Below are positions 25,666 to 44,910 of a DNA stretch of 64,000 bases, in pieces (the stretch's first letter is position 1; every line of letters starts with the position of its first letter). A program made the translations under genes and the position numbers. The notes under the pieces are model-generated. The model saw nothing but the letters and a program-made list of their open reading frames with translations, ran no database searches and was not told the DNA's origin. Source of the stretch: Pseudomonadales bacterium (GTDB taxonomy: Bacteria; Pseudomonadota; Gammaproteobacteria; Pseudomonadales; Ketobacteraceae). The DNA lies in assembly GCA_020062665.1 (NCBI GenBank), contig JAGUVW010000040.1:94730-158729 (forward strand), written 5' to 3'.

Positions 25666-25752
25666 ATCTTCGCCGGTTCCTTTCATTCCCGGAAATTTGA
25701 CTAAACTTGTTCATATGAATGCTTGGTCATCTATGAACAGGGCAGGTGTGCG

Positions 25753-28700
25753 GTGGAGAAGCGGAAGTTCCCACGACAAGGTCTGGGGGTCGAGGCAATT
25801 TATGTCATCGATAATGACAATGCCTGTACTGGCGTCATCCATGATTTCAGTCAGGATGGTTTGTTCATCACCTTTGGCGACGACGGCCAGTTCGAGGATA
25901 TCCGCCGCCAGCGCGTGCTGATGGGCGCCAAGGTCGAGATCATCGTTCCTATCGACGGCAAGCAGACCACCTTTCACACCACGCTTGTTCATATCAACGA
26001 AAGCGGAATGGGCGTGACCTACACCGGCAACAAGTTCCGCGCCTTCCAGCAGCTGGTTCAGGCCCGTCAGCAAACGATGTCTGCCGACGACGAAACCGCC
26101 CGCGCGATTGTTGAAGGCCAGCGCGTTACCGATGAGTCCCGCCGCCTGAAAATCCTCAACGCCTGCAATGCGCACGTGAAGGAATTCATGGATGAGATGC
26201 TGCATGAATTTCTCAATGTGCTCGAAGACAACCTGCTCAAGGAAGCAGGCAAGCAGAAGAATGATGCGGCGCAGCACCCGTATTTCGACGCCATGGCCCA
26301 TTTCAAGCGGCAGCACAAAGCATTGCCGGGCCTTGTCATTGGCAAGATCACAGCCGACGCGCAGGATATTGTCCACGGCCGCTACAAGCCGCCTGCAACG
26401 GGAGCCGTGTCTGGCAATGGTGATCAACATCTGTCGCTGGTGGAAAAAAGTGATTTTGAAGAATGGCTGATTGTGCGGGTTGTCGTGTCGCGTGCAGATT
26501 TGCAGCTGCGCGAACCGCTCATCGAAGTTCAGCTGCGCCTTGATGCCGCGTTTGGCAAAGACGATGGCAAACGTCTGCTTAATCCATTTTCGCCTGCCAT
26601 GATCACGCAGGCGTTCCATGGTGCCATTCATGGGTTTCATCTGACCGCCACCGTGGAACGGCTGGTGTTCAAAGTGTTTCAGGATGTGGTTCTGAACAAC
26701 CTGGCGCGACTTTACAAAGGATTGAATGCCATCTTTGTGAAGCATGGAGTGTTGCCGGATATCGATGTCACCCGTTACCTGGCGGCAGAAGCAATGAAGC
26801 GCAATCGAGCCAGTCAGGCGCCATCGCCCAGCGGCGCGAATGCGGTGACACCTGCAAACGTAGCGACAGCTTCTGAACCGGCAGCCGCTCGCCCTGTTGC
26901 GGGTAGTGGCGCATCTGCGGCCAGTGCAGCGCCAGCCACAGGTGCAATGTCGTCTGCACAAAGTGCGCCGGGCTCGGCGACACCGGGTTCCTCGTTCCAG
27001 GCCCTGAAAGAAGGGCTCGAACGTGCCCGGCATGCCTATTCCGCTGCATCGCGGCTGATGAAATTGCAGCGCACAAAGGACGAGGGTTCACCCCAGTCGC
27101 TGCGTCACGAGACGCCGGCAACGCCCGCTGACCCGCAGATCACGCAGCAGGCCATTCGCACGCTCAACGGCGTGCAACAGCAGTTGCTGGACAATGAGAT
27201 CACACTCAACGAACCAGGATCGCTGGTGCGGTACATGGTTCAGCTTTCCCAGGAAGACGGCGTTACATTGACGGAACAGGAAGTGGAATCCGCCGAGGTG
27301 GTGGAAAACCTGTTCAGCAATATTGTGGATCATCAACGCATCGTACCCGATCTGAAACCTGAACTGCGCAAACTAGAAGTGCCGATTCTGAAAGTTCTGC
27401 TGCAGGATCCCCGGCTGTTCTCCTCCGAATATCATCCCGCGCGTCAGTTCGTAAACTATGTCGCGCTGTTGGCAGACAAGGAAAGTGTCAACCTCAATTC
27501 CAACCGTCCGACCATTCTGGACAGTATTCGCATCGTGCTGACCAGCCCCCTGGAAGGCAATGAAGCCTTTGTCGAGGGATTGTCTCGTCTCGATAAAGTG
27601 GTCGATCGGGAAAAGAAAATCATCGAACGCAACCTTGCCCGGGTGACTGAAGCCTGTGAAGGCCAGCAGCGTATCCAGATGGCGAACAATCGCGTCGAAC
27701 GGGAGTTGGCAGAGCGTCTGCAGGGCAGATCCATTCCGCGTATTTTCAACGAACTGCTGGTGGGCGGCTGGAAAGATCTGATGCGGCTTTGCTATCTGCG
27801 CGAGGGCGTGGAGAGCCGAGCCTGGGAAATGACGCTGGTGGTGGTGGATCAGCTGATGGTTCGCCTGGTGTCAGGGGAATACGATGAAAGCAAGCTGCTG
27901 TTCAAAGCGGAAGAATTGCAGAAGCTGATCGAGAAAGGACTGTCCAAGGTGCCCGACAGCAAGGGGAGAAACGCGGATATCATCGCCCAGCTCCGGGAAA
28001 TGCTGGTGCAGGGTATTGCCGCCGACACCGAGATGGTGGTCTATGAAGCCGTCGAACGCCCAGGGCAGGCGACTCCCGCGCAGAGTGTGGCACCCGAGGC
28101 GGACGATAAATCCATGCAGCGCTGGATTGTGCGCGCGCGCAAACTGAAAGAAGGACAGTGGCTGGAATTCGATGCTATGTCGTCCACATCGCATCTGTAC
28201 CAGATTGCCTGGATCGCCGAACACCAAACCCGCTTCGTGTTTGTGAATCACCACGGCATGAAGGTTTCAGACATGGCGCTGGAAGAAGTGGCGCAAAAAC
28301 TCAAGTCAGGTGAACTCGTTGTGCTGAGTGACGCCGTTTTGCCGGCGGTGGAAAACGGGTTGGATTCCCTGGTGCAGAAAATTTACGACCAACTGGCGCT
28401 CGAATCCGCGCACGATCAGCTTACCGGCATGAAAACCCGCAAGGAATTCGAGCGCTGCCTGGCACAAAGCGTGGCGCGGGCGAAGCAATACGATAAACAA
28501 TACGTGCTGATCTATCTGGATATCACCCAGTTCAAGGTCATCAACAATACCTGTGGCTACGAGGCAGGCGACAACCTGCTGCGCGATATCGGTACCCGAT
28601 TCCGCAGCGTATTGAACAAGGATGCCACCGCAGGCCGTATCGGCGGGAACGAATTTGGTGTGATTGCCATGGTGGATTCCGATCAGCATGGTTTTCAGAT

Positions 28701-29688
28701 TGCGACTGAACTCAAGGCAGCAGTGGAAGAAAAACGGTTCATTGCCGGTGGGCAGAGTTTTGTCATCGAAACCGTCACATCGATGCTTACCTTTGACAGG
28801 CACAACGATCAGGTGCTGGAGTTGCTGCGTTCCGTGGAATCCGCAGTGGCCATCGCCAAGAAGCTAGGGCACAGGGAGATTCAGGTCGTCACGCAGGGCG
28901 ACAGCCGCATCGAAGAACGTGACGAAGTGATGGCCTGGGTGGCACGCATCAATCGTGCCCTCGATATGAATACACTGAAGCTGCGCTGCCAGAAAATCGC
29001 ACCGGTGGAGGAGGGCGGCGATGTTCTTCCCCATTACGAAGTGCTGCTCACTGTGGTGGACGACAAGGGTGAGCATTTGCCGCCCGCCGATTTCATTCGC
29101 GCAGCGGAAGAGTACAGCCGCATGGCTGCCGTGGATCGCTGGGTTATCGACACCGTATTGCGCTGGATGACCAATCACAAGGAAAAACTCTCCACCATCG
29201 GTGGCTTCTCGATCAATCTGTCTGGCCACTCCATGAATGATGATTCTTTCCTGGACTTCATGTTCGAGAATCTGGTGCGCTACGGCGTTCCACGTGACAA
29301 GTTGATTTTTGAAGTGACGGAAACAACGGCGGTAGCGAATCTGGAAGACGCGGCCGATTTCATCAAGGAAATGCGCGGTATCGGCTGCAGGTTCTCACTC
29401 GATGACTTCGGCGCGGGCCAGTCGTCGTATGCCTATCTCAAGAAATTGCCGGTGGATTTCATCAAGATCGATGGCGCATTCGTCAAGAATATCGCCGAAG
29501 ACGATGTGGATTATGCGCTGGTCAAATCCATTACCGAAATGGGACACTTCCTCAACAAAAAGATCATCGCCGAGTACGTTTCCGACAAGGAAATCATGGA
29601 GGTGGTCAAGGATATCGGTGTCGACTATGTGCAGGGCTACTATCTGGGCAAGCCCCGCTTCATGGAAGACCTCGCCATGTCGATCTGA
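25753..29688 (+). CDS. Large PilZ-DUF1631-GGDEF-EAL cyclic-di-GMP protein
   Basis: A 1311-residue soluble protein. An N-terminal PilZ-like domain (about 1-110, opening MEKRKFPRQ) is followed by a long DUF1631 region (about 130-830, with an Ala/Pro/Ser-rich linker near 355-420). Then come a GGDEF domain (about 900-1050) and an EAL domain (about 1070-1305). The GGDEF signature is GGNEF, so cyclase activity is doubtful. The EAL domain keeps its catalytic set: Glu in EVLL, Asn in INLS, Glu in FEVTE, the pair in LDDFG, Lys in FIKIDG, Glu in AEYV and Gln in VQGYY. Net phosphodiesterase activity is likely. The GTG at 25753 has cagggcagg ahead. A DUF1631-only paralogue is at 52348-54648. Confidence 0.9.
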   Translation: MEKRKFPRQGLGVEAIYVIDNDNACTGVIHDFSQDGLFITFGDDGQFEDIRRQRVLMGAKVEIIVPIDGKQTTFHTTLVHINESGMGVTYTGNKFRAFQQLVQARQQTMSADDETARAIVEGQRVTDESRRLKILNACNAHVKEFMDEMLHEFLNVLEDNLLKEAGKQKNDAAQHPYFDAMAHFKRQHKALPGLVIGKITADAQDIVHGRYKPPATGAVSGNGDQHLSLVEKSDFEEWLIVRVVVSRADLQLREPLIEVQLRLDAAFGKDDGKRLLNPFSPAMITQAFHGAIHGFHLTATVERLVFKVFQDVVLNNLARLYKGLNAIFVKHGVLPDIDVTRYLAAEAMKRNRASQAPSPSGANAVTPANVATASEPAAARPVAGSGASAASAAPATGAMSSAQSAPGSATPGSSFQALKEGLERARHAYSAASRLMKLQRTKDEGSPQSLRHETPATPADPQITQQAIRTLNGVQQQLLDNEITLNEPGSLVRYMVQLSQEDGVTLTEQEVESAEVVENLFSNIVDHQRIVPDLKPELRKLEVPILKVLLQDPRLFSSEYHPARQFVNYVALLADKESVNLNSNRPTILDSIRIVLTSPLEGNEAFVEGLSRLDKVVDREKKIIERNLARVTEACEGQQRIQMANNRVERELAERLQGRSIPRIFNELLVGGWKDLMRLCYLREGVESRAWEMTLVVVDQLMVRLVSGEYDESKLLFKAEELQKLIEKGLSKVPDSKGRNADIIAQLREMLVQGIAADTEMVVYEAVERPGQATPAQSVAPEADDKSMQRWIVRARKLKEGQWLEFDAMSSTSHLYQIAWIAEHQTRFVFVNHHGMKVSDMALEEVAQKLKSGELVVLSDAVLPAVENGLDSLVQKIYDQLALESAHDQLTGMKTRKEFERCLAQSVARAKQYDKQYVLIYLDITQFKVINNTCGYEAGDNLLRDIGTRFRSVLNKDATAGRIGGNEFGVIAMVDSDQHGFQIATELKAAVEEKRFIAGGQSFVIETVTSMLTFDRHNDQVLELLRSVESAVAIAKKLGHREIQVVTQGDSRIEERDEVMAWVARINRALDMNTLKLRCQKIAPVEEGGDVLPHYEVLLTVVDDKGEHLPPADFIRAAEEYSRMAAVDRWVIDTVLRWMTNHKEKLSTIGGFSINLSGHSMNDDSFLDFMFENLVRYGVPRDKLIFEVTETTAVANLEDAADFIKEMRGIGCRFSLDDFGAGQSSYAYLKKLPVDFIKIDGAFVKNIAEDDVDYALVKSITEMGHFLNKKIIAEYVSDKEIMEVVKDIGVDYVQGYYLGKPRFMEDLAMSI

Positions 29689-32264: not shown

Positions 32265-33608
32265 TCAATTGATGCTGTACTCATCTGCGGCGGGTGAGAT
32301 GTCCTGTTGAACTTCTTTCAGTCCCTGCTGAATGACAGATTTGAGTTTTTCATCCTTGATCGATTGCAGGAAAACATCGAGTGTCTTTTTGATGCGCAGG
32401 GTGTGCCACTCGATTTCATCCAGCATCAGCGTGACATCATCCACTTCCCGATAGGCGAAGGTCAGTTTTTCCTTGCGAACCTGCTCCAGCCAACGCAGGT
32501 AACCCTCATCGAGAATGCCGGAGCCTCGCACGATTCGCAGAATCTGTACTAGGATAGTTCGCGCGCTGACCAGCAGCTTGTGATCGCTGCGATCCTTGAA
32601 TTGCGACATCAACGATTCCAGTCCCTGCAGCATATGGGACAACAGATCGTTCTTCTGTTTCAGCTTGTTGACCTCTCCATCGATGGTTTCGTTGGTCAGG
32701 AAGGGCTTTTCATCCAGGTCAGCATTTCTCAGCACCAGAATCAGCGCCTTGTAAGTGTCGTAGAAATGGCTTTCGCTATTGACCTGCAGCAGCGGCATCA
32801 GATCCCGCAGATTGCGCCCATTGGGCACCAAGCGTTTCCGGTACACCGCGATAACACTTTCCGCCAATGCCACCACCTGGCTTTCCAGTGTCAGCTGGTG
32901 GGCAAACCGCCCGTTGGGGTATCCGGTGCCATCGCAACGCTCGTGGTGTTCGAGCACAGCCTGTGCTATGGCGGGCTTGATGCCGTTTACGCTCTCCAAC
33001 ACCTTGTACGAGATCACAGTATGCGCTTGGATCTGACGCCACTCAGCCGGCGACAATTCTTCCTTTTTCTCCACCACCAGGGGATCGATATGCATCATGC
33101 CGATGTCGTGACACAAACCCGCCATGAAGCAGATTTCCACCTGCTGATCAGTCAGTTTCATCTTGATGGCCACCAGCACCGCCAGCCAGGTGACACTGAC
33201 GCTCTGCCAGTACAGCTTGGGCATCTGCTCGCGCATGACTGTCAGTTTCTGGCGAATGATGGGGTAACGTGCGTAGGCCGAACACAACTGCTTGATGGTA
33301 GGCTCGATGTTGGCGCGCTGATGAATCATCAGCACCTGAGGATACTGCTTCACAGCCGTCAGCAAATCCTTGAACAGCTCGGCAGCACCGAGACTGTTTG
33401 CAACGTCAACGCTGGACTCAATGGGTTTTACCAGTTTGAAGCGAACGATCTTGTCGGCGATTTTCTGATTGATGGGCGAGCCCTTGCGAACCAGAAGCAC
33501 GCCTTGATCGTTATAAATGTCTTCAGAGGCTATGATTTCCCTTTTTTCCCCCAGCAGGGTCAAACGCTCCGTGTACGCTTTGTCGTGCAACGGGTCGAAA
33601 TCAGTCAT
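32265..33608 (-). CDS. HD-GYP domain protein (probable c-di-GMP phosphodiesterase)
   Basis: A 447-residue protein with a central HD-GYP domain (about 130-270). It contains the metal pair LCHDIGMMH, a following HTVISYKVLE and the signature HHERCDGTGYPNG (GYP present). The N-terminal 110 residues are a small region not clearly like a receiver. The C-terminal 170 residues are helical, with no transmembrane segment. It should hydrolyse c-di-GMP. It lies about 90 bases downstream of yfiR on the same strand and may be the last gene of the tpsB-yfiR unit, placing a phosphodiesterase with a diguanylate cyclase control module. Confidence 0.85.
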   Translation of the reverse strand: MTDFDPLHDKAYTERLTLLGEKREIIASEDIYNDQGVLLVRKGSPINQKIADKIVRFKLVKPIESSVDVANSLGAAELFKDLLTAVKQYPQVLMIHQRANIEPTIKQLCSAYARYPIIRQKLTVMREQMPKLYWQSVSVTWLAVLVAIKMKLTDQQVEICFMAGLCHDIGMMHIDPLVVEKKEELSPAEWRQIQAHTVISYKVLESVNGIKPAIAQAVLEHHERCDGTGYPNGRFAHQLTLESQVVALAESVIAVYRKRLVPNGRNLRDLMPLLQVNSESHFYDTYKALILVLRNADLDEKPFLTNETIDGEVNKLKQKNDLLSHMLQGLESLMSQFKDRSDHKLLVSARTILVQILRIVRGSGILDEGYLRWLEQVRKEKLTFAYREVDDVTLMLDEIEWHTLRIKKTLDVFLQSIKDEKLKSVIQQGLKEVQQDISPAADEYSIN

Positions 33609-33695
33609 TTCGGGAATCTATATAGATAAACAGGCTGTATTAAGGCTAGCAGAGCGGCCCTGTTGAGCAAGGGAGCATTGGAGGAATATGCAATA

Positions 33696-34271
33696 TTACC
33701 TTTCGTTGATGATGCGGGCGAGAGCAAGCAGATCGGAGCTGATCAACAGACCGTTTTCGATGGCCTTGGCCAGGTTGATTTCGAAAGACTGCTGATCCGA
33801 TGTGCGCATGATGTTGACCACACCACCTCGAGTTGCAAAGTCCTCGGTGTTGCCAACGCTGAGCACGAACAAGTGATTAATATTCTTGAAGAACTTTTCC
33901 AGTTCGTTGGTGCGGTCGATGCCCACGAACAGAATGTGACAGCCGGCGCGAATCTTTTCGTAATCCGTCGTGCGGACAACATCGAGCACACGATCGCGAA
34001 TGGTGGCGCCGTTCACCATGTCGAGAAATTCCCCAAACGGAACAGCACCATACAGACACATCTTCAGCGGACTGGAAGGGGACGAAAATGCATCCTCCGG
34101 CCATTCGACAAAGTTGGCGAAGTTATAGAGAAACAGCGCCTTGACCTGATATTCCCTGACTTGCTGCAAATCATCATCGGCAAAAGTGCTCGGAGGCAGC
34201 GCCAACAGAACGCCGATCCAAAGATAAAAAGTTCCGATGCGGATTAGTTGTGTCAATGAATTGATTTTCAT
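33696..34271 (-). CDS. YfiR-like periplasmic protein (DUF4154)
   Basis: A 191-residue protein with a Sec signal peptide (cleavage near PPSTFA, about 31) and the YfiR/DUF4154 pattern: VKALFLYNFANFVEWPEDAF near the mature N-terminus, then CLYGAVPFG, CHILFVG and a final FEINLAKAIENGLLISSDLLALA. In Pseudomonas and E. coli, YfiR is a periplasmic repressor that holds the diguanylate cyclase YfiN/TpbB inactive. The YfiN-type gene is only 2 kb away on the other strand. Here yfiR is directly downstream of the tpsB gene (19 bases), not beside yfiN. The ATG at 34271 matches the signal peptide; an upstream extension is not credible. Confidence 0.85.
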   Translation of the reverse strand: MKINSLTQLIRIGTFYLWIGVLLALPPSTFADDDLQQVREYQVKALFLYNFANFVEWPEDAFSSPSSPLKMCLYGAVPFGEFLDMVNGATIRDRVLDVVRTTDYEKIRAGCHILFVGIDRTNELEKFFKNINHLFVLSVGNTEDFATRGGVVNIMRTSDQQSFEINLAKAIENGLLISSDLLALARIINER

Positions 34272-34290
34272 GATGAGCAATATTGTCGTC

Positions 34291-36024
34291 CTAGAATTGT
34301 AGACCAAAATGCCCATAGATGATGGGCTCGAATGTGTCTTGCGCGAGCGGCAATGATGATTGCTCAGACAAAGGAAAGCCAAGCGTAACTCTGCCCGACA
34401 GACCATTTTTCCGTTCCGCTTCCAGGCCTATGCCCGCTGCAATGAACGAAGCAGTGTTGTTGTACTCGTCATTCTGCATCCCATACACACCGTCCAGAAA
34501 AATAAATGGAGCAAGGCTGATGCTCTGGGCACTTTTCCAGCCGGAAAATATATGTTCCAGACCAATGCGATAGGCCTGGTCTGCGCTGAACAGGGCTGGT
34601 TCGTATCCGCGGACCGATGTTGCCCCGGTGAGAGACATGCGCTCCGCATCGGGAATCACCGAATAAGTGGCAAGTGCGTTAAGGTTCAACGACGTCAACT
34701 GACCGCTGATCATCGCCGCACTCCACAAATGCTGCAGCGAGTAGTTCAATCGGACTCCCCAAAACTCACTGTCGATGGCAGCACTGTTGGTCTTGGTGAC
34801 ATGCCCGAGCAGCGGTGCCAGATACAATCCCTGATTCAGACGGATGTCCGTGCGCATTACCGACATTCTCACGCCGGCTTCCAGGGTGATGTAATCGATA
34901 TCTTCTTCAAACACATCGCGAAACTCATCGCTGGTAACCACGGATTGTTTGAACCCAATGTTGAGCAACGCATGTGCCTTGGCATTCTGCTCATTCAGCA
35001 ACTTCGAATCACCGGCAAACTGGAGGGTTAGCAAGTGACCCTCCAGTCCGAATTGCGCAAGGTCGCCTGCTATTTCAAACTGATTGCTGCTGAGAGCGGT
35101 GCTGAATCGGGTTTTAGCGGACAGGGGCAAGCCATACTGGATGCCGCCATACAGATTGCCGGACTCGTTGGTGGCCACCGCCGTCATTTGCAATTGATCG
35201 CCGAGTCCTGCCACATTGTTGCGCGAATGCCCCAGTGAAGCGCGTGCCACGCCGGTATCCTGCACGCCCCAGTTATCGATGCGCACCAATGTCTCTGCAG
35301 GCTTTTCCTGTTGAACGCGCAGATTGAGTCTCGTTTCACCCTGGCGCCGACCCACTGAATAGAAACCAAATACCTTCAACCCAGGCATGGCATTGACCTG
35401 TGATACCGCCTGTCGGACGGCTGGCTCATACACGACCTGGCCCAGCAGTGGCTCAAACGGAGCAGAAATCTGATCACGGGTATAGAGGTCGTTCTTCATG
35501 ATGTTGACTTCGGCAAGGCGGCCGGCCAGCACGTTCAACGTCAGGGTTTCATCGCGGATTTCCTGCGGCAACACGAACACCTGGTTGAAGGTCAATCCCT
35601 TGTCGTGATACACCACTGTCAGTTTGTCCGCCAGCCGGTGCATTTCTGATATGGACATCCAAGATGAGCGGGCTCGCGCAAATGCATTCAGCTGCTGACG
35701 GATGAATTCATTGGTAATTCCGTACTGAGGGAACAGTACATCACCACGCAGCTCTACCCGTCGAATCCGGACTTTGCCGTCAACGATTCTTTCTGCAGGT
35801 ACCCCAGTAGTGGGCGATGATGCCACACTTGCAGGGCTCTCTCCTTCAAGCGTCAGATCATGGCCAAACGTAGCTGCAACGCCAGATCGTGCTTCGGCAG
35901 CAAATCCGAGCCTCATTACCAGCATCATAAAAAAAACCAATAGCATCAGCCCTTTGCCAAGCCGCAGCGTGTAAAGGGCTGATGTTCGGATCTTGCGGGA
36001 ATTTAACGGATACAGGGGAATCAA
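34291..36024 (-). CDS. TpsB-type two-partner secretion transporter (ShlB/FhaC family)
   Basis: A 577-residue Omp85-related outer-membrane transporter. After a hydrophobic leader comes a periplasmic region with a linker and a POTRA-like domain (about 85-165, IRRVELRGDVLFP and DKLTVVYHDKGLTF), a second POTRA (about 170-235), and a 16-strand-type barrel. The barrel contains the conserved VRGY motif of loop L6 (TGATSVRGYEPA, about 465), and the protein ends in an aromatic (HFGLQF). It exports a filamentous-haemagglutinin-type partner. The start is a TTG; another candidate start is ATG at 35946. The cognate exoprotein is probably the TpsA-like gene at 37412-38497. It is divergent from the YfiN-like gene. 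Confidence 0.88.
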   Translation of the reverse strand: MIPLYPLNSRKIRTSALYTLRLGKGLMLLVFFMMLVMRLGFAAEARSGVAATFGHDLTLEGESPASVASSPTTGVPAERIVDGKVRIRRVELRGDVLFPQYGITNEFIRQQLNAFARARSSWMSISEMHRLADKLTVVYHDKGLTFNQVFVLPQEIRDETLTLNVLAGRLAEVNIMKNDLYTRDQISAPFEPLLGQVVYEPAVRQAVSQVNAMPGLKVFGFYSVGRRQGETRLNLRVQQEKPAETLVRIDNWGVQDTGVARASLGHSRNNVAGLGDQLQMTAVATNESGNLYGGIQYGLPLSAKTRFSTALSSNQFEIAGDLAQFGLEGHLLTLQFAGDSKLLNEQNAKAHALLNIGFKQSVVTSDEFRDVFEEDIDYITLEAGVRMSVMRTDIRLNQGLYLAPLLGHVTKTNSAAIDSEFWGVRLNYSLQHLWSAAMISGQLTSLNLNALATYSVIPDAERMSLTGATSVRGYEPALFSADQAYRIGLEHIFSGWKSAQSISLAPFIFLDGVYGMQNDEYNNTASFIAAGIGLEAERKNGLSGRVTLGFPLSEQSSLPLAQDTFEPIIYGHFGLQF

Positions 36025-36194
36025 CTTGCGAAAATCCCACTCAGCTACTTTTATTTATATTTGAATGTAAGTATATATGCGGTTTGAAATTTTTGTATGG
36101 ACAGCTGAAATCTGATCGGCAGGCACAAGCGCCGCAGCAGCACACTCAGCTTCCAGACTGGCACTGGGCATTAGAGGACAATCAGTCATTTAGC

Positions 36195-37409
36195 ATGTTG
36201 GACTTCCGCAAGCTCAAGATCAAAACCAAGCTGGCGTTGGTTGTCCTGCTCACGTCCACAATCGGTCTGGTGTTGACGGGGGCGGGCGTGTTTGCTTTCG
36301 ATCGCATGAAACAACGTGAAATCCTGTCCGAAGAGCTGAATATACTGACTCGCGTGATAGCTGAACGGAGTGCGGCAGCGCTGAGTTTTCGCGATGCCAC
36401 TCGCGCGAGTGACAACCTCGCGTCACTTCTGGTGCGCGAATCGGTTCAGGTTGCCTGCATGTATGATTCTGCGGGCAACGTTTTCGCTCAGGCAACCCGC
36501 AACAAGGATAGTGCCGCTGCCTCATGTCCGCTCAACCCGCAACGGGAAGGCAGCACCTTCAGTGAACGCTCACTGGAAGTCAATCAACCGATCCTGCTGA
36601 ATGGGCAGGCCATCGGCACAGTCACCGTGATTACTGGCCTTGATGATCTCGATCGCCGTCTGCAAGGACAGGTGCTGGTCAGTCTGGGCGTGCTCGCTCT
36701 GTCTCTGGTGACAGCATTTCTGGTGACGCAAAGGCTGCAGCAGGCTATCTACCGGCCGATCGTGCAGTTGGGCGAAGTAGCGCGCAAGATTACCGAACAT
36801 AGTAACTTTGCTATCCGCGCGCAGAAATTGAATGACGATGAAATCGGCGATGCGATCGATGCATTCAACGCCATGCTGGGCAAGATAGAGCAGGACAAGG
36901 ATGAGCTGACCAGGCTCGCCTACTACGATCCTCTGACGCGGCTCGCTAACCGTCGCATGTTCAGTGAGCGACTGGTGTTCGCTTTGGAGAACGCCCGTCG
37001 CAGCGGGGACAAAATGGGATTGCTGTTCCTGGATCTCGACCGATTCAAAGCCATCAATGACGAGCTCGGGCACGACATCGGCGATCTGCTGCTGAAGTCT
37101 GTTGCCAAGCGGCTTGAGTCGGCCCTTCCCGAGACGGCTACTGCATTCCGGCTCGGAGGTGACGAATTCACCGTGCTGCAGGTAGGCGTGAGCGAGGAAG
37201 ACATGGAAAAAACCGCGCAAGCCATTCTGCAGTCCTTTACAGAGCCCCTTATTCTTGCCGGGAGGCAGCTGTCCATTTCATCCAGTATCGGAATTGCAAT
37301 ATCCGATGGGCATGACAACGTCAGCTCCATCATGAAAAGTGCGGACGTGGCGCTCTATCGAGCCAAAGACTCAGGTCGCTGCAACTACAAGTTCTTTCAC
37401 CGAACCTGA
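36195..37409 (+). CDS. YfiN/TpbB-type membrane diguanylate cyclase (CHASE8-HAMP-GGDEF)
   Basis: A 404-residue inner-membrane protein with two membrane helices (about 15-36 and about 155-175). The periplasmic region between them resembles CHASE8 (SEELNILTRVIAERSAAALSF). A HAMP domain and an intact GGDEF domain follow (RLGGDEFTVLQ), so it should make c-di-GMP. No RxxD inhibitory site is visible just before the signature, so product feedback may be weak. YfiN proteins are held inactive by periplasmic YfiR; a YfiR gene is close by. The ATG at 36195 is chosen for its position before the first helix; the frame is open upstream. No YfiB outer-membrane lipoprotein is seen. Confidence 0.88.
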   Translation: MLDFRKLKIKTKLALVVLLTSTIGLVLTGAGVFAFDRMKQREILSEELNILTRVIAERSAAALSFRDATRASDNLASLLVRESVQVACMYDSAGNVFAQATRNKDSAAASCPLNPQREGSTFSERSLEVNQPILLNGQAIGTVTVITGLDDLDRRLQGQVLVSLGVLALSLVTAFLVTQRLQQAIYRPIVQLGEVARKITEHSNFAIRAQKLNDDEIGDAIDAFNAMLGKIEQDKDELTRLAYYDPLTRLANRRMFSERLVFALENARRSGDKMGLLFLDLDRFKAINDELGHDIGDLLLKSVAKRLESALPETATAFRLGGDEFTVLQVGVSEEDMEKTAQAILQSFTEPLILAGRQLSISSSIGIAISDGHDNVSSIMKSADVALYRAKDSGRCNYKFFHRT

Positions 37410-37411
37410 CG

Positions 37412-38497
37412 TCAGTCTGGCAATGAACCGCCGATCAGCAGGCGCCCCAAATAACGTTTGATTGCGCGCTTTTTTTCACATTCACTGTTCCGGGATTCAT
37501 CGGGAAGGCAATCCTCTATCAGGCTGTCGAGCGCACTGACATCACTGGAGGGGCGTTCCACGAGTGGACTATCAAGATCATCCAGGTTGTTTTCGTTGCC
37601 CAACACTTCGGAAACAATATCGTCAGCCTGCTGCTCGTCATCAATCACAGTTGGAGGAGGCTGGAGCACAATATTCTGCGTGATCTCCCCATAACCAATG
37701 CCGATGGCATTGACCAATCCGGTATTGCGAACGGCCTGTACGTTGAGAGAGCTCAGGTACTGCACATTGATATGTATGTTACCGTTGACCGCACGAATTT
37801 CACCTGCATTGTCCAGCAGCACCGCGTCCGGGGAAATGTCCTGCAGAATGCCTTGTGAAATCTGCACGCCGATTTCACCGCTGGTGTCGGTAACCACAAT
37901 GGGGCCACCAGCAACAGCCAGGTTGATATTGCCGTCATTCGCCGTCAGCGTGCCGTCATTTTCGATGAACTGAGCTATCAGCGTAATTCCATTACGTGTT
38001 GTGGTGGTGACGGCGCCTTCGACCCGGACGCCACCGATGCGGCCATCGCTGTCAACGAGTGTCATATCGCCCGTCTGCGTGTAGCGATTGAATTCATCGT
38101 CGGTAAGCGTCATGTCGGACAGGAACAAGCCACCAACATTGACGGTGGCACCGGATCCGATCAGTACTCCTGCTGTATTGAAAATAAAAACCTGACCGTT
38201 GGCATTCAGACTGCCGAAAATCTCGCTCGGCGCTCCGGAAAAATCCCGATTCAGGGCAATGGAGGAGGTAAGTGGCTGAATGAAGTTGACCTGTTCACCC
38301 GCCTGAATGTTGAAAGACTGCCAGTTAATGACGATGTTCTGACTGTTTTGCTGAATATCCGTCACTGCCCCGGCAGTGTTAATGCTGGCGTCACCTGACA
38401 CGACGCTTCCCCCCGCAGGGGCTGAGTGAGCGAAGTCCGCTGTGCCTGCAAGAACTGCGAGAAATGCCAGTCCATTGTATTTGACCCAGGTTCTCAT
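37412..38497 (-). CDS. Small TpsA-like exoprotein with haemagglutinin activity (TPS) domain
   Basis: A 361-residue secreted protein. After a signal peptide (cleavage near AHSA) comes the two-partner-secretion domain found at the N-terminus of filamentous haemagglutinins: GDASINTAGAVTDIQQNS and NIQAGEQVNFIQP early, then SLNANGQVFIFNTAGVLIG and VNVGGLFLSD. The beta-helix repeats end near residue 260, followed by an acidic, low-complexity stretch (DDEQQADDIV) and a C-terminus with two cysteines flanking a charged segment. TpsA proteins usually exceed 1000 residues, so this is minimal. The C-terminal cysteines could be a retention device, as in HMW-like adhesins. It converges with the YfiN-type gene, 2 bases apart. 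Partner: the TpsB at 34291-36024. Confidence 0.82.
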   Translation of the reverse strand: MRTWVKYNGLAFLAVLAGTADFAHSAPAGGSVVSGDASINTAGAVTDIQQNSQNIVINWQSFNIQAGEQVNFIQPLTSSIALNRDFSGAPSEIFGSLNANGQVFIFNTAGVLIGSGATVNVGGLFLSDMTLTDDEFNRYTQTGDMTLVDSDGRIGGVRVEGAVTTTTRNGITLIAQFIENDGTLTANDGNINLAVAGGPIVVTDTSGEIGVQISQGILQDISPDAVLLDNAGEIRAVNGNIHINVQYLSSLNVQAVRNTGLVNAIGIGYGEITQNIVLQPPPTVIDDEQQADDIVSEVLGNENNLDDLDSPLVERPSSDVSALDSLIEDCLPDESRNSECEKKRAIKRYLGRLLIGGSLPD

Positions 38498-38687
38498 CAG
38501 AATTGCCACATTCAAAAGTAGATGCCGTTTTTTGAAGTGTAGCACTCTGAGCGCTTTTCTCAGGATTCTGCCGATGGATGAGCGCTTGCACAGCTGGGTG
38601 CAGACAAAGTTGTGCAGCACCCGCGGTACAGCATGATTGGGCGGGAAACGCGACACCATAGTCGTGTCGCGCCACCCTGCAGCAGCA

Positions 38688-39251
38688 TCAGAACCAGATC
38701 ATCATGCCAACGAACCCGCCTTCCTCGATATTCTGATCGCGTCCTTCCTCAGGGCCAGCCTCTGCGCGACGATACCCTGCGTGAATCCAGGCGCGCTCGA
38801 TGATGCGATACTGGATGCGGGCAGAAAAGTCATAGAACGATTCAAATTCGCCAAAGGTCAGAATGTCAGGGGCATAGTAAAGGTCTCCGCGCAGACTTAC
38901 ATTGGGCACATTCGGCAGATCCCAAGTCAGAAATCCACCCAGACCAAGCGCGGTACCATCCTGGTCGATCAAGTCGGCATCAATGAAGTAGTAGCGCCCA
39001 CCCAATCCAGCGAGAATGCCCGATTCCTTGTTTACGCTGTCCGCCACAAAAAGGCTGGCGTAGAACATGTCACCATTGTCCGTGTGATGCAGGGCACCGC
39101 CCCCCACGTTCAGTTCGGACTTGCGGAGCTGGCTGGTGAAATCCAGGCTGACTGCATCGTTATTGATTGCGAGGTCGATGGTATGGGCCTGGGCATATGC
39201 GGCCATAGCGGAAGCAATCGTCAAGGTTATGATTTGTCGAGAAAAGTGCAT
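38688..39251 (-). CDS. YfaZ-like outer-membrane protein
   Basis: A 187-residue protein with a signal peptide (cleavage near AQAHT, about 22), followed by alternating beta-strand segments and a C-terminal Phe (GMMIWF) expected of an outer-membrane barrel. The DNGDMFYASLFVAD and LGGRYYF blocks match the YfaZ family. Aggagttccag gives a strong ribosome binding site for the ATG at 39251. It lies upstream of the TpsA-like gene on the same strand with a 190-base gap, so they may or may not be cotranscribed. Function is unknown. Confidence 0.75.
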   Translation of the reverse strand: MHFSRQIITLTIASAMAAYAQAHTIDLAINNDAVSLDFTSQLRKSELNVGGGALHHTDNGDMFYASLFVADSVNKESGILAGLGGRYYFIDADLIDQDGTALGLGGFLTWDLPNVPNVSLRGDLYYAPDILTFGEFESFYDFSARIQYRIIERAWIHAGYRRAEAGPEEGRDQNIEEGGFVGMMIWF

Positions 39252-40512: not shown

Positions 40513-41925
40513 GTGTTTCATATACGCATATTCAACCACTACCTTCCCGTTCAGTACATTGCCCTCGCATTTATAGAATACTGGCTATTGTTGCTAGCAG
40601 TTTATTTGGCTGTTGATATCAGGCTTCCGGATGAGGCAGTCCGCTATTTTGACTTGAATGATCCTTACACGTTGCGAGCAAGTCTTTTCGCGATCGTTAT
40701 GCTTTGCTGCACCCTGTCATTGGGTGTCTATGAGTCCAAGCTGAAAGAAGGATTTTCCGGCGTCGCCGTTCGATCTGTTGTCAGCTTCTTTCTGCTGGGC
40801 GCTGCATTACTGACGGTACTGTATTACCTGTTTCCGGAAATGCAGCTGGGGCGGGGTGTGCTGTCCATCGCTGTAGTTCTGTCGCTGTTGTTGTGCCTGC
40901 TATCGCGGGCGATCTTCTACCTGGTCGTGGATGCTGCCCGGCTCAAGCGCAACGTCCTGATCCTCGGCGCGGGCGCCAAGGCGCTCGAAATCCAGGCATT
41001 GATCGAATCACCGGGCAGAAAGTCGTCCTGCAACCTGATTGGTTTTGTTGCTGCAGACAGCTCGGAGTCCAGCGTGGATCCGGATCGCCTCATTGAGTTG
41101 GGGGATGAGCTGCTGCCGTTCTGCAACACGCAGCGTGTCGACGAGATCATCGTTGCCTTGGATGAACGACGCAAGAACATGGGTGGGCGTCTGCCAATAG
41201 ACTCGTTGCTTGACTGCAAGCTTGCGGGAATAGAGGTTCACGATGCGGTTCGTTTTTGTGAAAGGGAGTTGGGCCGCATTGAGCTCAATCAATTGGATCC
41301 GAGCTGGATGCTCTATTCCGAGGGATTCCGGTATTCCGGCGTGCGCGATGTGTCAAAGCGCATTTTTGATATTGTGATTTGTCTGGTGCTGTTGGTGGTG
41401 GTCTGGCCGTTCATGCTGTTAACGGCCATTGCCGTATTCCTGGATGATGGTATGCCGGTGCTGTATCGGCAGACGCGGGTGGGGTTGAACGGCAAGCTGT
41501 TCAATCTCTACAAGTTTCGCAGCATGCGCAAGGATGCCGAAAAGAACGGAGCTGTCTGGGCAAGACAGAATGACGACCGTATTACCAAGGTTGGTGCGTT
41601 CATCCGGAATACCCGCCTCGATGAACTCCCGCAGATCTACAATGTTTTGAAGGGTGATATGAGTTTTGTGGGGCCGCGGCCGGAACGGCCGGAATTCGTC
41701 GGCGACCTCAATGAAAAGATTCCTTTTTTTCGCGAGCGCCACAGGGTGAAGCCTGGCCTGATGGGGTGGGCTCAGCTCAAGTATCCATATGGCGCATCCA
41801 TAGAAGATGCAGCGCAAAAATTGCGCTATGACTTGTATTACACGAAGAATCACAGTTTGTTGTTGGATATTCTGATCGTCATTCAGACCGTGGAAGTGGT
41901 GTTGCTCGGAAAGGGTGTTCGATAG
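40513..41925 (+). CDS. Exopolysaccharide initiating sugar-phosphate transferase (exosortase-associated type)
   Basis: A 470-residue polyprenyl-phosphate hexose-1-phosphate transferase of the kind grouped with exosortase/PEP-CTERM polysaccharide loci (TIGR03013-like). Four N-terminal membrane helices precede a CoA-binding-like fold (LILGAGAKALEIQ, about 150). A further helix leads into the catalytic bacterial-sugar-transferase domain, with KFRSMRKDAEKNG, DELPQIYNVLKGDMSFVGPRPERP and RHRVKPGLMGWAQL. It loads the first sugar on undecaprenyl phosphate. The GTG start has aaggg ahead. It is the first gene of an operon encoding export and chain-length proteins. Confidence 0.88.
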   Translation: MFHIRIFNHYLPVQYIALAFIEYWLLLLAVYLAVDIRLPDEAVRYFDLNDPYTLRASLFAIVMLCCTLSLGVYESKLKEGFSGVAVRSVVSFFLLGAALLTVLYYLFPEMQLGRGVLSIAVVLSLLLCLLSRAIFYLVVDAARLKRNVLILGAGAKALEIQALIESPGRKSSCNLIGFVAADSSESSVDPDRLIELGDELLPFCNTQRVDEIIVALDERRKNMGGRLPIDSLLDCKLAGIEVHDAVRFCERELGRIELNQLDPSWMLYSEGFRYSGVRDVSKRIFDIVICLVLLVVVWPFMLLTAIAVFLDDGMPVLYRQTRVGLNGKLFNLYKFRSMRKDAEKNGAVWARQNDDRITKVGAFIRNTRLDELPQIYNVLKGDMSFVGPRPERPEFVGDLNEKIPFFRERHRVKPGLMGWAQLKYPYGASIEDAAQKLRYDLYYTKNHSLLLDILIVIQTVEVVLLGKGVR

Positions 41926-41957
41926 GAACGACTATACTTATGACCTGAGGTGAAACA

Positions 41958-42572
41958 ATGAAACATCTTTTTTTTGCAGGCCTGTTGGTGGTAGCGATGG
42001 TCGGCTGCTCCAGTACGAAGGTGGAACAGGGGCAACCGCCTGTGGGCAACCAGGCTGCCCAGCAGGAGATCTATAAAATTGGTGCAGGGGACTCGCTTGC
42101 TGTAACTGTCTGGCGCAACCCTGATCTGTCGGTGAGCGTTCCAGTTCGGCCCGACGGAATGATTTCAGTGCCCTTGGTTGGTGACATTCAGGCTGCAGGC
42201 CAGCAGCCGCAGGAGCTGGCGCAGGCTTTGACCACCCGCCTGGAGAATTATGTCAGGAACCCGCAAGTAACCGTGGTTGTCACAAATGCAGCGAGTTCCG
42301 AATTCCTGCATCGCGTGCGCGTCACGGGTGCTGTGAACAATCCGGCATCATTACCTTACCAGAAAGGCATGACGGTTATGGATGTGGTGCTGGAATCTGG
42401 TGGTGTAACCGAATTTGCCAATGCCAACAATACCAAGCTCTATCGCAACACTACGGAAGGGACCAAGGTCTATAGTGTGAAACTCAAGGACATCCTTGAG
42501 AAAGGTGACATCAGAACCAACTACCCGCTGCAACCGGGTGATATCGTCACCATTCCAGAGCGCCTGTTCTGA
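41958..42572 (+). CDS. Wza-like polysaccharide export lipoprotein
   Basis: A 204-residue outer-membrane lipoprotein. The lipobox is VVAMVGCSS, giving a lipidated Cys17. A Poly_export domain follows (YKIGAGDSLAVTVWRNPDLS, then VRPDGMISVPLVGDI), and a SLBB-type domain follows that (VRVTGAVNNPASLPY). It is shorter than E. coli Wza and lacks its C-terminal helix, as in exosortase-linked loci. It should form the outer-membrane exit channel for the polysaccharide. It lies 32 bases after the sugar transferase, and the chain-length gene starts 22 bases after it. Confidence 0.9.
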   Translation: MKHLFFAGLLVVAMVGCSSTKVEQGQPPVGNQAAQQEIYKIGAGDSLAVTVWRNPDLSVSVPVRPDGMISVPLVGDIQAAGQQPQELAQALTTRLENYVRNPQVTVVVTNAASSEFLHRVRVTGAVNNPASLPYQKGMTVMDVVLESGGVTEFANANNTKLYRNTTEGTKVYSVKLKDILEKGDIRTNYPLQPGDIVTIPERLF

Positions 42573-42594
42573 ATTTGGGAGAGACAGCAACCTG

Positions 42595-44136
42595 ATGAAT
42601 GCTACCGGTTCGCCAGCAACATTTATTTTTGATTTTATCAAGGTACTTTTCCGGGAAGCCGTCTGGTATCGGACATACGTTGCACTTTGTTTTGCTGCGG
42701 TGTCGCTTGCCGTGCTTGGGGTAGGCCTGGTCTATCCCAAGACGTTTGAATCCTATGCCACCGTGCATGCGGATCAGCAGAACATCATACGCCCACTGTT
42801 GGCGGGCCAGGCTGCAACGACCACCGTTACCGATCAGACGCGGGTAGTTCGTGAAGTTGCAACGTCGCCGAGATTGCTCAAGCAGGTGGTTGAGGAGCTC
42901 TCGCTGGTTTCTGATCCATCCAACGCAGTCCAGGTTGAGTCTCGGGTGAATTCCCTGCGTGGAGCCCTGCGGATCGAGGGTGTAGGTGATAGTTATATCA
43001 AAATTGGATATAGCGGTGCCAACCAGAGTGAAGTCTACAACATCGTTTCCAAAGTGACCGATCTGTTTATCAAGAACTCCTACGAATCCAAGCGCAAGGA
43101 AAGCAAGGAGGCGTTTCTTTTCATCGACAAGCAGGTCAAGGCCTATAAAGCGCAGCTGCAGGAAGCCGAGTCCAATTTAAAAGCCTTCACGGCCAATAAC
43201 CTTGATGGCACTGAAGCCTCGGCGGAGGCGCGCATAGCAAATTTGCGGCAGCAAATCGAAAACACCCGCTTGAGCATCGAAGAAGCAGAAACGCGAATCA
43301 AATCGCTGGAGAACGAACTGTCACAGGAAGGGCAATTCGTGCAGCGGAGGTTCCGATCCGATGTTTTCCGGGAAAGCTTGATGGAGGCACAGAGCCAGCT
43401 TGAAGTGCTGCGTCTTTCCTACACCGATGATCATCCTGATGTGGTTTCCCTCAAGCATAAAATTGAGGACATGAAGCGTGCGATGTCTGAAGCAGATCAG
43501 CGACAGGTGTCATCCAGCCAATCTTCCGGTTCAGCGTCTGACCCCAACATCAATCCGCTCTATGAAGAATTGCGTTCTCGTATCTCTACCGAGAAAGTTG
43601 AGCTGCATTCCATGCGGCGCCGGCTGGAGCGCTCGCAAAAACTGTTGAGCGAAGAGTTTGAGCGCTTGCAGCGTATTGCCAACCGGCAAGCTGAGCTTGC
43701 AGAGCTCACACGCGACTACGACGTCAACCGCTCGATTTATGAGGATATGTTGAGCCGAAAGGAACGCGCGCGACTTTCCATGACGTTGGATGTGGAGGGT
43801 CAAGGCGTCACCTACAGGATTCAGGAACCTGCGGTATTTCCTCTGACTCCGAAGGGTCTGAGATTGATTCACTTTTTCTTTGCGGGGCCTGTATTGGGTC
43901 TGATTGCACCCTTTGCCATCCTCGCGGCCTTCATCTATTTCGATCCCCGGATTCGGTTTGTTGGCCGCCTTGAGTCCATAACAACTGTACCTGTATTGGG
44001 CGTAGTTCCCCACATTACATCGCCGCTCTCCAAACGGGTCATGAAGACGGATGTCATGCTGCTTGTCGGATTCCTTTTCATTGTGATGTGCGTGTATATC
44101 GCCTTGGCATTTGCGCGTCATCAGGGAGTTATTTAG
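42595..44136 (+). CDS. Polysaccharide chain-length determinant (Wzz-type, no kinase domain)
   Basis: A 513-residue inner-membrane protein with a Wzz N-terminal helix (about 25-45), a long periplasmic coiled-coil region (about 160-420), the PCP-type C-terminal block RARLSMTLDVEGQGVTYRIQEPAVFP, and two further membrane helices at the end. It matches the exosortase-associated chain-length proteins (TIGR03007-like), in which the kinase is a separate protein. The ATG at 42595 is preferred; the frame is open upstream inside the preceding gene. Its stop overlaps the start of the next gene (TAGTG). Confidence 0.88.
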   Translation: MNATGSPATFIFDFIKVLFREAVWYRTYVALCFAAVSLAVLGVGLVYPKTFESYATVHADQQNIIRPLLAGQAATTTVTDQTRVVREVATSPRLLKQVVEELSLVSDPSNAVQVESRVNSLRGALRIEGVGDSYIKIGYSGANQSEVYNIVSKVTDLFIKNSYESKRKESKEAFLFIDKQVKAYKAQLQEAESNLKAFTANNLDGTEASAEARIANLRQQIENTRLSIEEAETRIKSLENELSQEGQFVQRRFRSDVFRESLMEAQSQLEVLRLSYTDDHPDVVSLKHKIEDMKRAMSEADQRQVSSSQSSGSASDPNINPLYEELRSRISTEKVELHSMRRRLERSQKLLSEEFERLQRIANRQAELAELTRDYDVNRSIYEDMLSRKERARLSMTLDVEGQGVTYRIQEPAVFPLTPKGLRLIHFFFAGPVLGLIAPFAILAAFIYFDPRIRFVGRLESITTVPVLGVVPHITSPLSKRVMKTDVMLLVGFLFIVMCVYIALAFARHQGVI

Positions 44137-44885
44137 TGGAAAAAGACTTCGACTCAAAAGGCAAACGATCACAGGTTGTCGATATGCCCAAACAATCAGC
44201 CTCTGGCCATGGAAAGATTTCCAACATGGCGGAGCTTGGCCGCATGTCGGTGGAAGAAATGGCCGCGCGCAAGATCATTTATCCGGGCATGCCGCAAAAG
44301 GGTGTGCTCAACACCTTCCGCGAGCTGAGGACGGAACTGGTTAAGCTGGCCGGAAATCGCAACATAGTCGTCATGGTCACCGGTGTGTCATCCCATTCCG
44401 GAACCAGCTTTGTTTCAACCAATCTGGGTGCAGTTTTCGCGCTGGATAAAACAAAAACGGCCATGCTGATCGATTGCAACCTGTATGATCCTTCGCTGAG
44501 CTCGCTGCTGGATGTTGAGCCGGATTATGGTTTGACCGATTATCTGGCGGAAGAAAAGCTTGATGTAAATGACATCATTTATGCCACTGGAATTCCGCGC
44601 CTGCGCGTTGTCCCGGTTGGCACTCACACGGAAGCCGGTGCGGAGTATTTTGGTTCATCACGCATGAAGCACTTTGTCGATGGGCTCAAAACCCGCTATC
44701 CGGATCGTTATCTGATTATTGATGCTCCTCCCATTGGATTGTGGGCAGAGGCACGCATTCTGGCGGATCTCAGCGATTACGTCGTATTGGTTGTGCCGTA
44801 TGGGCGTGTAAATGAAGCTCAGGTGACTGCAGCGATTGATGCACTGGGTGAAGAAAAGCTCGCGGGAATTATCTTCAACAACTGA
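44136..44885 (+). CDS. BY-kinase-like ATPase with a degenerate Walker A motif
   Basis: A 249-residue protein with the MinD/BY-kinase fold of CpsD/CapB. Walker A is replaced by GVSSHSGTS at residues 83-91, with Thr where Lys is expected. Walker A' is intact (AMLIDCNLYDP), as is Walker B (YLIIDAPP). There is no C-terminal tyrosine cluster, the protein ending EEKLAGIIFNN. In normal family members the lysine and tyrosine tail are needed for autophosphorylation that cycles the chain-length protein. This one probably partners the Wzz-type protein without classical kinase chemistry. The start is a GTG with cagggag ahead. Confidence 0.8.
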   Translation: MEKDFDSKGKRSQVVDMPKQSASGHGKISNMAELGRMSVEEMAARKIIYPGMPQKGVLNTFRELRTELVKLAGNRNIVVMVTGVSSHSGTSFVSTNLGAVFALDKTKTAMLIDCNLYDPSLSSLLDVEPDYGLTDYLAEEKLDVNDIIYATGIPRLRVVPVGTHTEAGAEYFGSSRMKHFVDGLKTRYPDRYLIIDAPPIGLWAEARILADLSDYVVLVVPYGRVNEAQVTAAIDALGEEKLAGIIFNN

Positions 44886-44910
44886 TCAATAAATGAATCT
44901 GGGGAAGTGT

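Follow-up and report, generated by a model that had tools for sequence, protein, structure and literature searches.

We analysed a 64,000-nucleotide stretch of DNA (the window) from a Pseudomonadales bacterium of the family Ketobacteraceae (contig JAGUVW010000040.1, positions 94,730 to 158,729), in which the genes for a YfiR protein, the two-partner secretion (TPS) transporter TpsB, a CHASE8-HAMP-GGDEF cyclase, and the short TPS exoprotein TpsA all lie inside 5 kb. The initial annotation had placed a cyclase, YfiR, an HD-GYP phosphodiesterase, TpsB, and TpsA at one locus, and Pfam supports every gene; the spacings and the divergent orientation that it reported for tpsB and the cyclase also hold. 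The tpsB gene (34291..36024, minus strand) encodes an outer-membrane protein that scores over the cut-off for both POTRA_2 (PF08479) and the ShlB barrel (PF03865) and so qualifies as a type Vb transporter. It has 577 residues counted from a TTG, the true start possibly being internal. Nineteen bases separate its end at 34291 from the ATG of yfiR at 34271, an internal start within the open reading frame (ORF) 33696-34406. The true yfiR is most likely 33696..34271 (minus strand), which encodes a periplasmic YfiR/HmsC-like protein of 191 residues (PF13689, 131 bits against a cut-off of 24.9) belonging to the TPS-linked group described below. By prediction, this protein has the solved YfiR fold: all 15 Foldseek matches of its model with E <= 0.001 are YfiR chains (target TM 0.69-0.75). 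Its C72 and C111 align with C71 and C110 of Pseudomonas aeruginosa YfiR.

The YfiN-type cyclase (36195..37409, plus strand; 404 residues) most likely starts at ATG 36195 and is divergent from tpsB across an intergenic region at 36025..36194, a gap of 132-251 bases in nine relatives that share the window layout. Its GGDEF motif is intact, and its inhibitory site, judged by eye, is without RxxD. Two bases separate its end at 37409 from that of the convergent tpsA (37412..38497, minus strand). Promoter and terminator scans of the region stayed at chance level (7 terminators found versus 7.3 expected).

The 361-residue TpsA consists of a signal peptide (by eye), a TPS beta-helix at about residues 31-279, a flexible linker, and a C-terminal tail (37412..37531, minus strand) with the cysteines C330-x9-C340, a helix at 338-356, and the end LGRLLIGGSLPD. 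Its TPS domain matches PF05860 with 86 bits, and its Foldseek matches are the secretion domains of EtpA, HxuA, and HMW1, that is, the TPS secretion-domain fold. What we take to be the canonical TPS-domain stretch, NPNGI, reads NTAGV here. The AlphaFold2 model (mean predicted local distance difference test score 83) is confident for the beta-helix at 31-279 and of low confidence for the linker at about 300-322; the tail helix at 338-356 stands apart from both.

A four-gene module conserved in relatives

The initial annotation would have been refuted had these genes been unlinked in other genomes; instead, YfiR is linked to TpsB at 27 further loci and to the end of a TpsA at a 28th that is cut by a contig edge. 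In a set of 57 related genomes, including the window's own, close YfiR proteins (60% identity or more) are present in 13 of the 15 genomes of the window's family. Twelve family loci were fetched besides the window. TpsB adjoins YfiR in all 12 (in two frames at L040), and TpsA lies on the YfiR contig in 11; the twelfth locus is cut by a contig end, and a tailed TpsA stands at the end of another contig. A CHASE8-GGDEF gene is adjacent in 10 of the 12 (the contig is cut at L040, and L044 has none in 15.5 kb). The HD-GYP phosphodiesterase-like gene (32265..33608, minus strand; HD_5), which the initial annotation counted as part of the module, does adjoin yfiR in the window, beginning 87 bases past it, but it adjoins yfiR in only 6 of the 12 family loci and in none of the five stretches fetched from one sister genus; we therefore rejected it as a core part and regard it as an optional neighbour. 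A second, kinase-type copy of the module occurs in four of the five sister-genus genomes (L046-L049, with L049 cut).

Among named genomes, scanning turned up 24 loci, seven of them new to the survey; the carriers, several of them bearing names of metagenome-assembled genomes, include Ketobacter sp., Halovibrio salipaludis, Oleiphilus, Oleispira, Hahellaceae, and Agaribacterium haliotis. Ketobacter belongs to the Ketobacteraceae, Pseudomonadales, and its locus (L137) is on the same contig as G014:C15 of the window's family. From metagenomes, at least 120 close YfiRs are listed. TPS genes thus stand with a YfiR of the group at 28 loci beyond the window, in several families of Pseudomonadales: the 12 family loci, the 4 kinase-type sister-genus copies, L050, 7 named-genome loci, and 4 loci from the order search (L149, L152, L169, and L200). 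TpsB was found in 27 of the 28; the remaining one, L049, is cut at the contig edge and shows the tailed end of a TpsA.

The genes are arranged in several ways (arrowheads give the direction). Layout A, TpsA> <cyclase TpsB> YfiR>, is that of the window, L034-L039, L138, L142, and L200 (10 loci), layout B, TpsA> TpsB> YfiR> <cyclase, that of L041, L042, L043/L174, and L045 (4 loci), and layout C, TpsB> TpsA> YfiR> CHASE8-kinase>, that of L046, L047, L048, L147, and L148 (5 loci). Layout D, TpsB> TpsA> YfiR> <cyclase, was found at L150 and layout E, <cyclase TpsB> TpsA> YfiR>, at L152 and L169. L050 has TpsB> TpsA> YfiR> with no CHASE8 gene found (layout F), and L149 has TpsB, YfiR, and a kinase with no TpsA in cis (layout G); L040, L044, L049, L144, and L146 are incomplete. 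Across the window and the 28 loci, the complete layouts number five, and tpsB, tpsA, and yfiR stand in three different orders. That the layouts were rearranged while the linkage was retained argues for a working unit rather than the inheritance of one order. Chance linkage was rejected, the 16 module genomes (4.2-7.2 Mb) holding 1-4 ShlB rows each, some of which are pieces of one gene.

The initial annotation had linked the TPS pair to a cyclase. A CHASE8 (hybrid) histidine kinase takes the place of the cyclase at some loci, and one kinase-type module is adjoined by a LuxR-type response regulator. Because such kinase-type modules exist, the conserved core is TpsB-TpsA-YfiR-CHASE8 and not cyclic di-GMP (c-di-GMP).

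In loci L041-L045 of the sister genus (for example L045:1578-6437), TpsA is the C-terminal portion of a single ORF in which Ig-like repeats come first (Big_1/Invasin_D3, by Pfam on L041, L043, and L045), and the ORF of L045 starts with DUF4347. A Gly-rich stretch and a hydrophobic segment precede the TPS domain, far from the N-terminus, and this ORF perhaps encodes a polyprotein; no NCBIfam match to GlyGly-CTERM was found in the two fusions tested. At three layout A loci (L138:129-5600, L142:1-5659, and L200:10020-16481), a gene of about 1800-2150 residues adjoins the short TpsA. The one at L200 has Big_13, FG-GAP, and LamG-like domains, and at both L138 and L200 the N-terminus of the product looks, by eye, like that of a lipoprotein. 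In the window itself, a DUF1631-GGDEF-EAL protein (25723-29688), a relative of which lies near the module in L034-L040, stands on the other side of an amidase. An exopolysaccharide-like cluster (40513-46182; WbaP-like, Wza-like, Wzc-like, and tyrosine-kinase-like ORFs, by eye) starts near the module and is possibly a c-di-GMP output.

A C-terminal tail nearly restricted to the module

The TpsAs of the module share a C-terminal tail of two cysteines followed by about IKRYLGRLLIGGSLP. Without exception, the YfiR-linked TpsAs with an intact C-terminus, those of 23 loci and of the window, carry it: a cysteine pair with a spacing of 8-17 residues is followed by a hydrophobic, helix-like terminus, in most cases I/L-G-G-x-L-P. 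The shortest of these proteins has 358 residues and the longest over 4000. By protein search, 61 proteins related to the window TpsA were found. In an alignment (A3) of the window protein with 44 short relatives, C330 and C340 are invariant in 45 of 45 rows, the choice of high-coverage relatives being one that favours tailed proteins; left out were P0001 (a near copy), P0005, P0019, and P0024 (shorter or partial), and P0049-P0061 (distant).

A tail model built from 13 tails matches 22 of the 23 loci, missing L147. It matches 18 of 390 genomes of the order, and 17 of these carry the module. G358 was new, found through the tail alone, and holds a full layout A locus, and the eighteenth match (G035), which scores 25 bits, falls in a frame of 38 residues and has no TPS gene within 12 kb, is probably due to chance. 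Beyond the order, the tail was found in none of 368 other class genomes and none of 397 other phylum genomes, the window's own genome being the sole match among the 369 class and 398 phylum genomes; the class, phylum, and order samples overlap in part.

The 16 module genomes have 31 TPS-domain matches, 22 tailed and 9 tailless. Eighteen of the tailed proteins are in cis with a YfiR of the group, and all 18 in-cis TpsAs are tailed. The remaining four are one at a contig break (G012), one on G011:C64, and two orphans in G152, a genome whose TpsB-YfiR-kinase locus lacks a TpsA and is matched by these two orphan tailed TpsAs. None of the nine tailless proteins has a YfiR in the fetched stretch; eight have an end that can be judged and carries no tail, and one is cut. 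In the stretch of one tailless protein (L159), the tail model weakly matches another, small ORF (13 bits). Across the genomes searched, the tail is nearly restricted to the module.

Two of these genomes have further features. G152 (L152/L149/L160/L161) has at least 11 PF13689 matches, with two TPS-YfiR loci and the two orphan tailed TpsAs. G011:C64 (L170) carries a second tailed TpsA-TpsB pair and a YfiR-like remnant of 30 residues that contains a stop.

The initial annotation viewed TpsA as an adhesin. Long TpsAs are present at other loci of the group, and the size of TPS exoproteins is given as about 100-650 kDa in passages of PMC5422565, a range of which the window TpsA, with 361 residues, falls short. 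Because it has little beyond the secretion domain, linker, and tail, and no stalk, it is probably a sensor or plug, and an ordinary adhesin is not favoured.

The outer-membrane neighbour of YfiR at other loci

PF13689 is present in 101 of 293 genomes of the order. We fetched 80 of the listed PF13689 places beyond the loci already in hand, and 3 of these 80 survey places are TPS-linked; the TPS form is a minority among YfiR loci. In all, 108 loci were classed by the partner of YfiR as TonB receptor (43), none found (34), TPS (27), or OmpA (4). L049, classed as having none, is the contig-edge TPS locus, and the division thereby becomes 28 TPS loci and 80 others, 33 of them with no partner found. 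L062, L065, and L074 were swapped for the longer L152, L169, and L149, and duplicates among the named-genome loci were omitted.

The 80 other YfiR loci carry a TonB-dependent receptor in 43 cases (by hidden Markov model, HMM) and a YfiB-type OmpA gene in 4, and the five genes upstream of other YfiRs that were tested with Pfam are all TonB-dependent receptors. None of the 80 loci has a TpsB, TPS, or tail match in stretches of about 13 kb, some of them cut. As a control, the TpsB model recovered 11 of 11 fetched unlinked ShlB genes, with 22-222 bits. In a tree of 108 YfiR rows, the 29 TPS rows form one side of a branch with a Shimodaira-Hasegawa-like approximate likelihood-ratio support of 99; the tree was built quickly, is unrooted, has several long branches among the rows beyond the TPS group, and omits L119 (under 100 residues), and L049 was set to TPS by hand on account of the tail in its cut ORF. 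YfiRs were scored with an HMM built from 21 seeds, three of them from non-TPS loci.

Other YfiR loci carry TonB receptors or OmpA genes, and none of the 80 carries the TPS genes; the outer-membrane slot is thus an exchangeable one, taken here by the TPS pair and elsewhere by a TonB receptor or YfiB. The initial annotation had described YfiB as missing. No OmpA/YfiB-like gene is among the eight Pfam-tested genes at the window locus, where the outer-membrane gene adjoining yfiR is TpsB, but the slot of YfiB is occupied rather than vacant. The TonB receptor loci (NCBIfam TOL_0243 and HK_near_YfiR_like) share with the module an outer-membrane protein, YfiR, and a CHASE8 output, and the sensor part of the window cyclase passes HK_near_YfiR_like (203 over 194 bits). 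They differ from it in having a TonB barrel and YfiRs of other branches, and the window YfiR stays below the TOL_0243 cut-off (114 against 125).

The arrangement TonB-dependent receptor, YfiR, and CHASE8 kinase or cyclase (L054-L133) is the commonest YfiR setting in this order sample. YfiR-domain matches also occur within open frames of 650-961 residues (G002:C1:112119, G031:C20:73782, and others), which are probably natural fusions.

Two-partner secretion as a possible receptor

The linkage strongly supports a functional joining of the TPS pair to the YfiR module, the central idea of the initial annotation, although its details need changing. Contact would more likely be made by the tail of TpsA than by the POTRA domains of TpsB. 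In P. aeruginosa, outer-membrane YfiB captures YfiR and frees YfiN, according to passages of PMC4887326, PMC2837407, and PMC5812517. The module shares with this YfiBNR system (DgcN/YfiR/YfiB in enterobacteria) the YfiR fold, a CHASE8/PAS-HAMP-GGDEF cyclase with an intact GGDEF, and an outer-membrane partner, which in YfiBNR sequesters YfiR (passages of PMC4887326). However, the partner in the window is a TPS pair and not an OmpA/Pal lipoprotein, the gene layout is divergent, and the output of the module is sometimes a histidine kinase; on the DgcN/YfiN model the window cyclase reaches 254 bits against a cut-off of 325, and on the YfiR model the window YfiR reaches 34 against a cut-off of 85. 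We rate the module as outside-in signalling of the YfiBNR kind in which the outer-membrane part is new, and we give about even odds to the reading that the TPS pair, through a retained TpsA tail, replaces YfiB as the outer-membrane input to the YfiR-cyclase pathway. By analogy with P. aeruginosa YfiN, YfiR likely restrains the CHASE8 proteins of the module.

We propose, as a bolder reading, that two-partner secretion may act here as a receptor, in which the exported protein would be the sensor and its disulfide-closed periplasmic tail the ligand by which YfiR and the CHASE8 output (cyclase or kinase) would be switched; we give this reading a probability of roughly 0.4. In the reading with even odds, the short TpsA would be exported via TpsB and held by a two-cysteine hook, while the C-terminal tail with its two cysteines would remain periplasmic as a message. 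The tail would bind YfiR, or YfiR together with the CHASE8 domain of the cyclase, and this binding would lift the predicted YfiR inhibition and turn the cyclase on. A tail that is present, meaning that TpsA has been exported and retained, would capture YfiR, and surface loss, pulling, or processing of TpsA would change the signalling state, such that the cell would read its own surface state via the tail. The polarity, with the tail present and the cyclase on, is borrowed from YfiB, and we infer the action on YfiR itself.

The hook is modelled on CdrA. In CdrA, a cysteine hook retains the C-terminus within CdrB (passages of PMC7616799 and PMC11898600), and its periplasmic tail is cut by LapG (passages of PMC5422565). 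By this analogy, a TpsA C-terminus with a cysteine pair could be held in the TpsB pore with its own end in the periplasm. The CdrAB-LapGD system shares with the module a TPS exoprotein, C-terminal cysteines (those of CdrA are thought to hook in the TpsB pore), a periplasmic tail (predicted for the module), and a link to c-di-GMP; but there c-di-GMP sets the fate of the tail via LapG, whereas here the tail would lie upstream of c-di-GMP. The window TpsA has 361 residues against 220 kDa for CdrA. A LapG-family gene is present in the window's genome, and the linker of the window TpsA, inspected by eye, is without Ala-Ala, the di-alanine that we take to be the LapG cleavage motif. In TonB-transducer signalling of the FecA/FpvA type, an outer-membrane protein passes surface state inward, to a regulator in the inner membrane, via a periplasmic extension. 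In contrast to that type, no sigma/anti-sigma pair was seen at the locus, and the extension belongs to the secreted protein.

Among other explanations, the one that survives best, though we consider it unlikely, is that the genes are merely co-expressed: YfiR-YfiN would be an ordinary periplasmic (for example redox) sensor, c-di-GMP would raise the export of its neighbour, and the TPS pair would be an output. Indeed, c-di-GMP controls cdrAB via FleQ (passages of PMC5422565), the window YfiR has retained one cysteine pair with known redox activity in P. aeruginosa (passages of PMC4887326), and the exopolysaccharide-like cluster, recognised by eye, lies next door. However, the TPS loci have a YfiR group of their own, the neighbour slot is exchanged with TonB receptors or YfiB, the tail is restricted to the module, and the window TpsA lacks the stalk for an adhesin role. 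Less probable still is the view of the initial annotation that YfiR senses the TpsB POTRA domains or unsecreted TpsA rather than a retained tail. The POTRA domains of TpsB recognise TpsA (passages of PMC5422565), TpsB distances follow YfiR too (r 0.89), and yfiR adjoins tpsB in layouts A and B; but layouts C to F place tpsA between tpsB and yfiR, and the confinement of the tail to the module would be left unexplained.

Covariation bears on which partner the tail may contact. In a mirror-tree comparison without species-tree control, and with a tail of only about 44 residues, tail distances at 21 complete loci correlate with those of CHASE8 (0.95), YfiR (0.89), TpsB (0.89), and the protein's own TPS domain (0.84). 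The corresponding values are 0.93, 0.91, 0.91, and 0.83 in the GGDEF-only set (16 loci) and 0.91, 0.80, 0.84, and 0.74 in a thinned set (15 loci). The partial correlation of the tail with CHASE8 is 0.65 (p 0.001; 0.40 and 0.66 in the subsets), and that with its own TPS domain is weak (0.33; 0.25 and 0.32). YfiR, tried as the tail's partner in this test, was not singled out. We read the tail as belonging to the periplasmic signalling side, and the partner singled out, if any, would be CHASE8 and not YfiR. That the tail acts directly on the CHASE8 domain, with YfiR as a parallel regulator, is nevertheless the least probable explanation that we weighed: CHASE8 gives the tail's top correlation and its only strong partial correlation in all three sets, but YfiR-CHASE8 distances correlate at 0.94, which makes the partial estimate fragile, and the tail would have to reach across the periplasm.

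Several observations weigh against the receptor proposal. The partial correlation of the tail with YfiR is -0.03 (p 0.6; 0.01 and -0.10 in the subsets), and the residues of the pocket by which P. aeruginosa YfiR takes YfiB are only partly kept in the window YfiR (I169 to A, P178 to S; hand count). The TpsA of L147 has the tail by pattern and not by model, 12 of the 17 module genomes matched by the tail model supplied its rows, leaving only five as independent finds, and one orphan tailed TpsA of G152 (L203) lies about 6.5 kb from a distantly related YfiR-kinase fusion. No CHASE8 gene was found near L050, no TpsA in cis at L149, and no cyclase in 15.5 kb at L044. Finally, linkage alone is also compatible with co-expression, and the tail may be an anchor only.

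The initial annotation knew of no described system of this form, and we likewise found no TPS-YfiR system described in the open-licence literature; open-licence papers that name YfiR/YfiN or a cyclase plus two-partner secretion treat the two subjects apart in the passages checked. From a biological perspective, the sensing of surface contact or of a displayed surface protein is a long-standing question, for which the short tail is a small, testable handle. If the receptor proposal is true, the cell would count or feel its own displayed surface proteins, and TPS systems, known for secretion, would gain a signalling role. Two-partner secretion as a receptor would then be a new class of cross-envelope signalling, and YfiR would be a general adapter with interchangeable outer-membrane parts (YfiB, TonB receptors, and TPS pairs) and interchangeable outputs.

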